Origin: Psychrilyobacter atlanticus DSM 19335
Lineage (GTDB): Bacteria > Fusobacteriota > Fusobacteriia > Fusobacteriales > Fusobacteriaceae
Reading direction: 5' to 3'
Assembly: GCF_000426625.1 (NCBI RefSeq)
Contig: NZ_KE384547.1
Span: 170,986-234,985, forward strand
DNA length: 64,000 nucleotides
In this document: one piece after another, positions 35,639 through 39,708 of the stretch
Numbering within the stretch: the stretch's first letter is position 1
Layout of the letters: the number at the start of each line of letters is the position of its first letter
Notes under the pieces: model-generated
What the model was told of the DNA's origin: nothing
Seen by the model: only the letters and a program-made list of their open reading frames with translations
Database searches by the model: none
Made by a program: the position numbers and the translations under genes

Positions 35639-35667
35639 TTGAATAAAAATAAAAATAATGATATTAT
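35639..35667 (+). promoter_or_regulatory. Promoter of the tyrosine leader region
   Basis: TTGAAT (35639-35644) and TATTAT (35662-35667) are 17 bases apart. The start is expected near 35674, shortly before the first leader peptide. Confidence 0.6.
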
Positions 35668-35701
35668 TTTATAAATAATAAATTGTTCGGAGGAATAAAA
35701 A

Positions 35702-35767
35702 GTGAAAAAATCAAACTTTATTACAACTCTATATTACTATTATTATAGGAAACAGGATTTGAATTAA
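35702..35767 (+). CDS. Tyrosine-rich leader peptide 1 (21 aa, five consecutive Tyr)
   Basis: A GTG codon 7 bases after GGAGGA opens a 21-codon frame, MKKSNFITTLYYYYYRKQ and three more residues. Codons 11-15 are all tyrosine. Tyrosine runs in a short translated leader are the classic sign of attenuation by charged tRNA-Tyr. A strong terminator follows at 35852-35884. No protein function is implied; ribosome stalling at the Tyr codons would report tyrosine shortage. Confidence 0.7.
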   Translation: MKKSNFITTLYYYYYRKQDLN

Positions 35768-35851
35768 TTCTTTAAATTAGAATTATATGCGAATCCATTT
35801 TGTATTACTATAAGTTTAGTGAGATGGATTTGTATCAAGAGATGTTATTTT

Positions 35852-35884
35852 AGTCTATGGGTACTTACCTATAGACTTTTTTTA
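35852..35884 (+). terminator. Attenuator terminator 1
   Basis: AGTCTATGGGT and ACCTATAGACT form an 11-bp stem around loop ACTT, followed by seven T. Upstream AATCCAT (35793-35799) can pair with ATGGATT (35824-35830), a candidate competing structure. Confidence 0.85.
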
Positions 35885-35951
35885 TTATCTGGGAAATCAT
35901 ATTCGCAAAGGGCATCATTAAGAATTATTAAATTAAAATAAGGAGACTGAT

Positions 35952-36014
35952 ATGAAATTTAAATTTAACTACTATTACTACTATTATTTATTAAATCTGG
36001 GTCATCGCGTATAA
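35952..36014 (+). CDS. Tyrosine-rich leader peptide 2 (20 aa, six consecutive Tyr)
   Basis: An ATG 6 bases after AGGAG opens the frame MKFKFNYYYYYYLLNLGHRV and a stop. Codons 7-12 are six tyrosines in a row. It repeats the design of the first leader but not its sequence. Hairpins ATCGC/GCGAT (36004-36019) and GATGCAGG/CCTGCATC (36021-36049) overlap or follow its end, and a terminator at 36075-36105 stands just before the transporter gene. Confidence 0.75.
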   Translation: MKFKFNYYYYYYLLNLGHRV

Positions 36015-36074
36015 GCGATAGATGCAGGTTGATTTTGATGGCCTGCATCTTTAGTAGTTAAACTTTTTTAAGTG

Positions 36075-36105
36075 AAGCTCAAGGTGTAGTCCTTGGGCTT
36101 TTTTA
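36075..36105 (+). terminator. Attenuator terminator 2, before the symporter gene
   Basis: AAGCTCAAGG and CCTTGGGCTT form a 10-bp stem with two G-T pairs and loop TGTAGT, followed by five T. It ends 32 bases before the ATG of the transporter, where a constitutive terminator would make no sense. Confidence 0.85.
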
Positions 36106-36136
36106 TATTGTGTTTTATTGTGAGGAGATGGTTGTA

Positions 36137-37486
36137 ATGGAAAATATTATAAACTTTGTAAACGGAGTTTTATGGGGAAAAAATGTATTGGTTTGGATGT
36201 TGATAGGGGCAGGGCTGTTTTTTAGTATAAAAACAAAGTTTGTTCAATTGAGATTGTTTAAGCATATGATATCTTTGGTAAAGTCAAATAATGAAGAAAA
36301 AAGTGAAGGGATTACATCTTTCCAAGCTTTCTGTATTAGTACAGCTTCCAGGGTAGGAGCTGGGAACTTGGTAGGAGTTGTAGCGGCAGTATCTATAGGT
36401 GGAGCAGGATCTATTTTTTGGATGTGGATAATGGCTGTAATAGGAGCCGCTTCAGCGTTTGCGGAAACTGTTTTGGCTGTTATCTATAGAGAAAAAACTA
36501 AAGACGGGAAATTTGTAGGAGGGCCGGCATTTTTCCTACATAAAGGAGTGGGGAAAAAATGGTTAGGAGTGTTGTTTGTAATATCTGCATTGATATGTTG
36601 GGCAGGAGTAATGCAGGTTGTTTCGAACTCTGTAACAGAATCTTTTAAGGTGGCTTTTGGAATTGATGAACTTATAGTGACTATAATTTTAATAATATTG
36701 ACAGGGGTAGTTATATTTGGAAAAAAGGATAAAATATCTATGCTTTTATCAAAATTAGTTCCTATTATGTCTGCACTATACTTATTAGTAGTGTTGTTTA
36801 TAGTGGTAAAAAATATTGATTTAATACCAGGACTTATAACAGAGATAGTTTCCCAGGCTTTAGGAATTAGGCAGGCAGTAGGGGGGAGTTTAGGAGCAGT
36901 TATAATGATTGGGATAAAGAGAGGGTTATTTTCTAATGAAGCAGGTAGTGGTAGTGCCCCTAGTGCGGCAGCATCAGCGGATGTTGATCATCCGGCGAAA
37001 CAAGGGCTGTTGCAAGCTCTAGGAGTGTTTGTAGATACTATATTAATATGTAGTGCTACAGCTTTTGTAATGTTGTTAGCAGATATAGATAAAACAAATT
37101 TAAAGGGGATGAAGTTTTTACAGGAATCTTTTAGATACCATGTAGGAGATTGGGGAGTTATATTTATAGCACTTATATTATTTTTATTTTCCTTTAGTAC
37201 AGTATTGGGGATCATGTTCTATGCTAAAAACAATATAATTTTTTTATCTGAGAGAGAGATCTTTCAAAATATGTTTAAAGTGTTGGTATTAGTTATGTTA
37301 TTTCAAGGTGGTATTCAACAAAATCTATTTATCTGGTCTTTGGCAGATTTTGGAATAGGATTGATGACAGTAATTAACCTTATAGGTATAGTATTGTTAT
37401 CTAAGGAAGTGAAAAGTTGTCTAGATAATTATGAAGGGGTTTTTTTGAAGAAGCAAAAGGCAGATAAAACTAAAGTTACAATATAA
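36137..37486 (+). CDS. Sodium:alanine symporter (AGCS) family protein
   Basis: The 449-residue inner-membrane transporter has about ten to eleven membrane helices. The AGCS signature region is visible (Phe-Gln-Ala-Phe-Cys-Ile-Ser-Thr-Ala-Ser-Arg-Val-Gly-Ala-Gly-Asn and Phe-Ser-Asn-Glu-Ala-Gly-Ser-Gly-Ser-Ala-Pro). Known members carry alanine or glycine with sodium or protons. The upstream tyrosine leaders suggest that the substrate or regulation involves tyrosine. I chose the ATG at 36137, with GAGGAG 9 bases upstream; a GTG at 36110 would overlap the end of the terminator region. The gene is monocistronic, ending in a terminator at 37600-37640. Confidence 0.88.
   Translation: MENIINFVNGVLWGKNVLVWMLIGAGLFFSIKTKFVQLRLFKHMISLVKSNNEEKSEGITSFQAFCISTASRVGAGNLVGVVAAVSIGGAGSIFWMWIMAVIGAASAFAETVLAVIYREKTKDGKFVGGPAFFLHKGVGKKWLGVLFVISALICWAGVMQVVSNSVTESFKVAFGIDELIVTIILIILTGVVIFGKKDKISMLLSKLVPIMSALYLLVVLFIVVKNIDLIPGLITEIVSQALGIRQAVGGSLGAVIMIGIKRGLFSNEAGSGSAPSAAASADVDHPAKQGLLQALGVFVDTILICSATAFVMLLADIDKTNLKGMKFLQESFRYHVGDWGVIFIALILFLFSFSTVLGIMFYAKNNIIFLSEREIFQNMFKVLVLVMLFQGGIQQNLFIWSLADFGIGLMTVINLIGIVLLSKEVKSCLDNYEGVFLKKQKADKTKVTI

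Positions 37487-38189: not shown

Positions 38190-39708
<1,519 letters not shown>

Follow-up and report, generated by a model that had tools for sequence, protein, structure and literature searches.

Sequence evidence for a double tyrosine leader-peptide attenuator before an AGCS symporter of Psychrilyobacter atlanticus and for a codon-swappable attenuator family

INTRODUCTION

The enterobacterial his leader, like those of trp, phe, and thr, combines a run of cognate codons in a short leader peptide with a chain of alternative helices that ends in a terminator. Segments B to F of the his leader are resembled by the chain of segments 1 to 5 in units of the type described here. These units differ from the enterobacterial ones in that they are directed at tyrosine, stand in tandem, are unrelated in sequence, and have control codons that pair with segment 3. 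Attenuators whose leaders hold 3 to 5 His codons also precede his operons of Firmicutes (doi 10.1186/s12864-022-08796-y); they are likened to the present units by their leader codons and differ in serving His only. Two leader open reading frames within one mRNA leader are known from Salmonella mgtCBR, where they answer different signals, ATP and proline (doi 10.1111/j.1365-2958.2012.08188.x), whereas both leaders of the present locus would read tyrosine. Aromatic codons occur in the attenuator leader aroR (Phe-Tyr-Phe) before aroF of Corynebacterium glutamicum, which differs from the present locus in being a single unit and is, according to a review, responsive to Phe and not to Tyr. The upstream frame of Acholeplasma aroF is also thought to read Phe.

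A further relative is the RNA class RF04312, or "trpB motif," which was published as a strong orphan riboswitch candidate by authors who noted that a classic attenuator was not excludable (Narunsky et al. 2024, doi 10.1093/nar/gkae248); its name appears in no other paper of the literature searched. Like the present units, it consists of a hairpin (P1) and a terminator (P2), with an antiterminator (putative in the present units) located on the right shoulder of P1, and occurs in Firmicutes and Fusobacteria before amino-acid genes. It differs in having been published without a leader frame, and the two units of the P. atlanticus symporter locus give no RF04312 match up to an E value of 5.

No pure Tyr leader attenuator was found in the literature searched, in agreement with a preliminary description of the locus, made from its sequence, which knew of no double Tyr-leader system. 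The locus seems to be the first with a pure Tyr leader and also the first in which two leaders directed at one amino acid stand in tandem; this priority is uncertain because most subscription journals fall outside that literature.

RESULTS AND DISCUSSION

Two Tyr-run leaders and two terminators precede the symporter gene

The window, that is, the whole 64-kb stretch of DNA analyzed, holds two units in series upstream of a symporter gene (Table 1). Each unit has a leader frame with a Shine-Dalgarno (SD) sequence and a cognate codon run, and an intrinsic terminator lies between leader and gene. Both SD-equipped Tyr-run frames and both T-tailed hairpins of the preliminary description were thereby recovered, and the hairpins are the sole terminator-like sites in 701 bp, where shuffled sequences gave an expectation of 0.1. 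Its assignment of the downstream gene to the AGCS family (TC 2.A.25) was borne out by scores above cut-off for PF01235 (458 bits) and TIGR00835 (450 bits). The promoter placed before leader 1 stood in part: a pair resembling its −35 and −10 elements is visible in relatives, and its 9/12 match is not above chance in a scan. An Rfam scan of this region up to an E value of 5 returned chance matches only, with neither a T-box nor RF04312 among them.

A double Tyr leader-peptide attenuator before the symporter is strongly supported by these sequence features and by the comparisons below. We consider it very likely that the AGCS symporter is controlled by a series of two transcription attenuators, both ribosome-mediated and specific for tyrosine, and that the symporter is most likely a tyrosine importer.

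Table 1 Features of the tandem units and of the related tyrS unit (positions in the 64-kb window unless a contig is given)
Feature	Position	Strand	Remark
Candidate sigma-70 promoter (TTGAAT-N17-TATTAT, TG before −10)	35639..35667	+	Similar −35/−10 in relatives
Shine-Dalgarno of leader 1, GGAGG	35689..35693	+	
Leader peptide 1, MKKSNFITTLYYYYYRKQDLN, GTG start, Tyr codons 35732-35746	35702..35767	+	Tyr run kept in relatives
Unit 1 segment 1 (GGATTTG), overlaps end of leader 1, pairs with 35790-35796	35755..35761	+	
Unit 1 RNA switch, model R1 match	35784..35885	+	42.1 bits
Unit 1 hairpin 2:3 (35787-35799 with 35823-35835), exclusive with 1:2	35787..35835	+	
Unit 1 candidate antiterminator 3:4, short (GTATC 35832-35836 with GGTAC 35860-35864)	35832..35864	+	Family-level test
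Terminator 1, 11-bp stem 35852-35877 then T run	35852..35884	+	6/11 pairs changed on both sides
Dispersed genomic repeat piece between units, probably outside the switch	35892..35917	+	11 places, 0 controls
Shine-Dalgarno of leader 2, AAGGAG	35940..35945	+	
Leader peptide 2, MKFKFNYYYYYYLLNLGHRV, ATG start, six Tyr codons 35970-35987	35952..36014	+	
Unit 2 segment 0, start of Tyr run, would pair with 36052-36062 if untranslated	35964..35974	+	
Unit 2 segment 1 (AATCTG), pairs with CAGGTT 36025-36030	35994..35999	+	
Unit 2 RNA switch, model R1 match	36019..36108	+	43.3 bits
Unit 2 hairpin 2:3 (36020-36030 with 36040-36050)	36020..36050	+	
Unit 2 antiterminator 3:4 (CTGCATC 36043-36049 with GGTGTAG 36083-36089)	36043..36089	+	
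Terminator 2, stem 36074-36101 then T run	36074..36105	+	
Shine-Dalgarno of symporter	36122..36127	+	
AGCS (Na+/alanine-type) symporter, 449 aa, proposed tyrosine importer	36137..37486	+	PF01235, TIGR00835
Tyr5 attenuator unit before tyrS (L109)	G000:C2:2230799-2230886	-	

The tandem arrangement is conserved in two genera

The double arrangement also occurs in two congeners, G007 and G002, and in Propionigenium maris, whose symporters are 96%, 90%, and 79 to 80% identical to that of the window. The two genera share both leaders, their SDs, the P1 hairpins, and the terminators, and compensated changes distinguish the window from P. maris; the P. maris leaders read MNNKNFVTTSYYYYYRNQDLN and MFRTNYYYYYYYKSDLDYAI, and at the position of the unit 2 antiterminator GGTCTGTAT is paired with GTGCAGACC. 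In terminator 1, the count of pairs changed on both sides, taken over 12 distinct unit 1 sequences, exceeds that of all 500 shuffles and of all slid versions. Ten further Fusobacteriaceae genomes hold a single Tyr5 unit before symporters 58 to 61% identical, with leaders that include MKQKIVFNTNAYYYYYLT and MGSNLQFFIRNAYYYYYKNKDWC. In line with the pattern that the preliminary description proposed to look for in the upstream regions of relatives, the Tyr run and the RNA are retained while the rest of the leader peptide has diverged. Its doubled Tyr attenuator is also supported by the covariation, by a third Tyr5 unit before tyrS, and by the family-wide match between leader codons and genes.

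Among the R1 matches listed (see below), tandem pairs were found nowhere but before the AGCS symporter. The AGCS relatives L077, L078, L088, and L091 lack a Tyr leader, as do more distant AGCS genes. Orthologous symporters without a Tyr leader in genus g13 (L077, L088, L090, and L091) have another T-tailed hairpin just upstream.

The same RNA occurs with other codons before other amino-acid genes

A scan of the window's own genome recovered the third Tyr5 leader, MKFNDNQTYYYYY, with a hairpin and terminator before tyrS (TIGR00234). The same genome encodes an HHHHH leader before a HisJ-like ABC binding protein, a TTTT leader before thrS, and an NNNNN leader, MFKLTVISKNNNNNMRGFVY, upstream of a same-strand asnA-like gene (L124, − strand, G000:C2 near 303.5 kb). 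In P. maris, nine Asn codons precede asnA (L178).

Across the Fusobacteriaceae, leader codons match the regulated gene for His, Tyr (tyrS), Thr (thrS and asd), Asn (asnA), Pro (putP), aromatic amino acids (aroF), and Met (metN). When leaders were picked by SD alone, all 55 of 55 units, not all of which were chosen blind, had codons fitting the downstream gene, mostly in runs of 3 to 6; the Pro and Trp leaders among them hold just one to three cognate codons. The His-type ABC binding proteins in this comparison were assigned by family resemblance, none scoring over the NCBIfam cut-off for histidine. Because the 55 units were not all blind, 20 further units were fetched by the RNA model only, and in 19 of these the leader clearly matches the gene, one example being MMM before metN. 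The remaining unit (L276) has an HHHHH leader, with hisG about 1.1 kb farther on.

The covariance model R1 was built from 18 units before other genes, 16 of them Fusobacterial and none an AGCS unit. It finds both window units (Table 1), no other match in the 64-kb window exceeding 26.8 bits, and its units are present in 54 of 61 Fusobacteriaceae genomes. In the R1 alignment of P1 and terminator, 19 of 26 pairs have changed on both sides, a result seen in 0 of 500 shuffles. A single modular attenuator would serve much of the amino-acid regulation in Fusobacteriaceae.

Several units bear on individual genes. A Met-run leader, MRNFEFRQLNIMMMLWKGL, stands with the same RNA before metN in G007 (L271, G007:C2:206244-206340). 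Tyr or mixed Trp/Tyr/Phe leaders were seen before TrpX-like ABC binding proteins (L211, L228, L229, and L205), the next gene of L228 being unassigned; the proteins behind these leaders may be tyrosine or general aromatic transporters. The mixed aromatic leaders FWYFYYF and WYFYYYF precede DAHP synthase (L141 and L181) and might sense the three aromatic amino acids simultaneously.

The leader points to tyrosine as the probable cargo

Small amino acids are the substrates for which the AGCS family is known, and tyrosine is our best guess for the cargo of this symporter because elsewhere the run corresponds to the amino acid of the gene product itself. A comparison of its pocket with that of the solved AgcS (6cse) was uninformative on cargo. 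The position of W370 is Ile in the Tyr-leader symporters; its replacement was rejected as a cargo marker, and the position does not discriminate, because leaderless Fusobacterial paralogs also lack Trp there. Tyr attenuation could be real and the symporter nonetheless carry alanine, glycine, or a wider range of aromatic or neutral amino acids, with tyrosine starvation acting as a proxy signal. Family membership favors such a substrate, as does the finding that pocket positions of the leader-bearing clade are not clearly different from those of the leaderless paralogs; the agreement of codon run and product in the other units argues against it, and we regard it as unlikely, though the most serious of the alternatives. 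The leader has a practical use: a codon run that specifies the amino acid allows substrates to be predicted for poorly annotated transporters, among them an AGCS protein that would otherwise pass for an alanine carrier.

Proposed alternative helices and the contribution of each unit

Each unit is proposed to contain six interacting segments, namely, 0 (the control codons), 1 (around the leader stop), 2, 3, 4, and 5. With ample Tyr-tRNA, the ribosome would reach the stop codon and mask segment 1, so that 2:3 forms and the terminator 4:5 ends transcription. When Tyr-tRNA is short, the ribosome would stall on the Tyr run, masking segment 0 and leaving segment 1 to form 1:2; segment 3 would then be free to pair with 4, and RNA polymerase would read through. 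In an untranslated leader, 0:3 and 1:2 would sequester segment 3 and the terminator would form. Tighter control than with one unit is expected, because the polymerase must pass both terminators.

Partners of the same locus pair more strongly than shuffled partners across 48 non-redundant loci, among which some kinship of units remains in the statistic. The energies (own locus versus shuffled, in kcal/mol) are −12.7 versus −7.8 for 1:2, −17.5 versus −11.1 for 2:3, −12.3 versus −8.6 for 3:4, and −15.6 versus −11.1 for 0:3, the own-locus strength being reached by 0 of 5,000 shuffles in each case. Shuffling solely among units of one amino acid gave the same outcome. The control pairs 0:4 and 1:4 showed no excess over shuffled partners, and 0:2 was marginal. 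The covariation score of the 3:4 columns is moderate, being reached by 9 of 500 shuffles.

When the 55 units were folded, 2:3 was weaker with a stalled ribosome than with one at the stop codon in 50, and 3:4 was stronger in 43. The fraction of 2:3 pairs was 0.36 with the ribosome at the first control codon, 0.79 at the stop, and 0.44 with no ribosome; the corresponding numbers of antiterminator pairs were 3.67, 1.82, and 0.85. A his-type chain of alternative helices is the best candidate mechanism for the switch of this family. In the window units, minimum-energy folds exchange 1:2 and 2:3 with no clean antiterminator gain. Unit 2 forms 3:4 both stalled and at the stop, before the 3′ terminator arm emerges. 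Stalling gives no 3:4 gain in unit 1, the weaker of the two, whose antiterminator is short and whose 0:3 pairing is weak.

These weak 0:3 and 3:4 pairings of unit 1 would suit a locus in which one unit functions and the other is a decaying duplicate, and single units suffice in most relatives. Such decay is improbable in light of the joint retention of leaders, SDs, P1 hairpins, and terminators in two genera, the compensated changes relative to P. maris, and the similar R1 scores of the two units. A recent duplication was rejected as the origin of unit 2, the units being alike only in the Tyr run and short matches.

Link to the orphan RNA class RF04312

Among 80 relatives, RF04312 gave full-length matches up to 52 bits and none over its gathering cut-off of 59 bits. 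Unit 1 of P. maris was matched at full length (41.4 bits) and the tyrS unit at 30.1 bits, both below the cut-off. Full-length matches were obtained for His, Tyr, Thr, Pro, and aro units of Fusobacteria; the best Fusobacterial matches follow leaders with codons suited to the gene downstream. Homology with the window units runs via intermediates, since R1, built from such units, finds both. Apart from P. maris, an initial set of 24 genomes, of which almost all were non-Fusobacterial, yielded little for RF04312. Chance-level matches without a matching leader on inspection (L159, L167, L168-L173, L176, L179, and L184) were dropped.

Over the cut-off, RF04312 was found in 8 of 300 Bacilli genomes sampled, with nine matches, all behind an SD-equipped leader that has one or two Trp codons, mostly as WQxW. 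Seven of the nine precede a TrpX-type binding protein (TrpX NF041285); for the other two (L196 and L200), no downstream gene was called within the sequence retrieved. Since the members over the cut-off all carry Trp leaders, RF04312 is most likely a ribosome-mediated attenuator.

The published ranking of related RNAs as a strong riboswitch candidate (doi 10.1093/nar/gkae248) invites the reading that the RNA of the window binds tyrosine or a related ligand and that the short frames are incidental. We find this very improbable: nearly every unit examined has an SD-equipped leader with codons matching its gene, pairing of the codon region with segment 3 exceeds that of shuffled partners, and a single scaffold, with no obvious ligand pocket, covers at least seven amino acids.

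Attenuation by the ribosome is the reading that we prefer for the wider class as well. The RF04312 scaffold is probably one ancient ribosome-mediated attenuator common to Bacilli and Fusobacteria, in which the leader codons and their pairing segment have been swapped for specificity (Trp, His, Tyr, Thr, Asn, Pro, Met, and mixed aromatic). Two Tyr versions stacked before one symporter in Propionigenium and relatives would gate it by tyrosine more strictly, possibly with ultrasensitivity, and the leader could be read as a label of the transporter substrate. Such an attenuator would explain how a published orphan RNA class, earlier ranked as a riboswitch candidate, works, and the evidence that this class is a codon-swappable attenuator is the wider value of the locus. 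Through its swappable codons, the scaffold is also a natural starting point for designing amino-acid sensors.

Chance expectation and minor features of the locus

TAY5 runs by themselves show no enrichment in this AT-rich genome (19 versus 17 in a reversed control), and for this reason the case for an attenuator rests on context. The combination of SD, start, and Tyr5 gave dozens of matches in 61 Fusobacteriaceae genomes, some of them simple repeats or inside genes, and the reversed pattern gave 0. When a single blind leader-picking rule was applied to 74 control T-tailed hairpins, a leader with an SD match of at least 5 and a run of at least 4 was found at 5, all true attenuators, two of which are those of the window. 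That AT-rich sequence yields TAY runs and T-tailed hairpins without function, as the lack of enrichment of bare runs might suggest, is refuted by conservation and covariation, with the controls also against it, and is scarcely credible here.

The spacer between the two units contains part of a dispersed repeat, GGAAATCA...CGCAARGGGCATCA, which has 11 genomic places and none for the control. The element CGCAARGGGCATCA resembled an RNA motif, a candidate that was rejected in favor of the dispersed repeat. The repeat is absent from G002 and P. maris; G007 has a different remnant, another part of the repeat (GCTTG-TGGATGCAACGTCA-GTTGCTTTTTTA), at the same spot, and both parts also occur before tyrS. 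Downstream of the symporter, around 39034-39602 of the window, short frames resemble rRNA sequence read as protein, and an rRNA operon probably lies there. A 16S gene is also found near the G007 copy.
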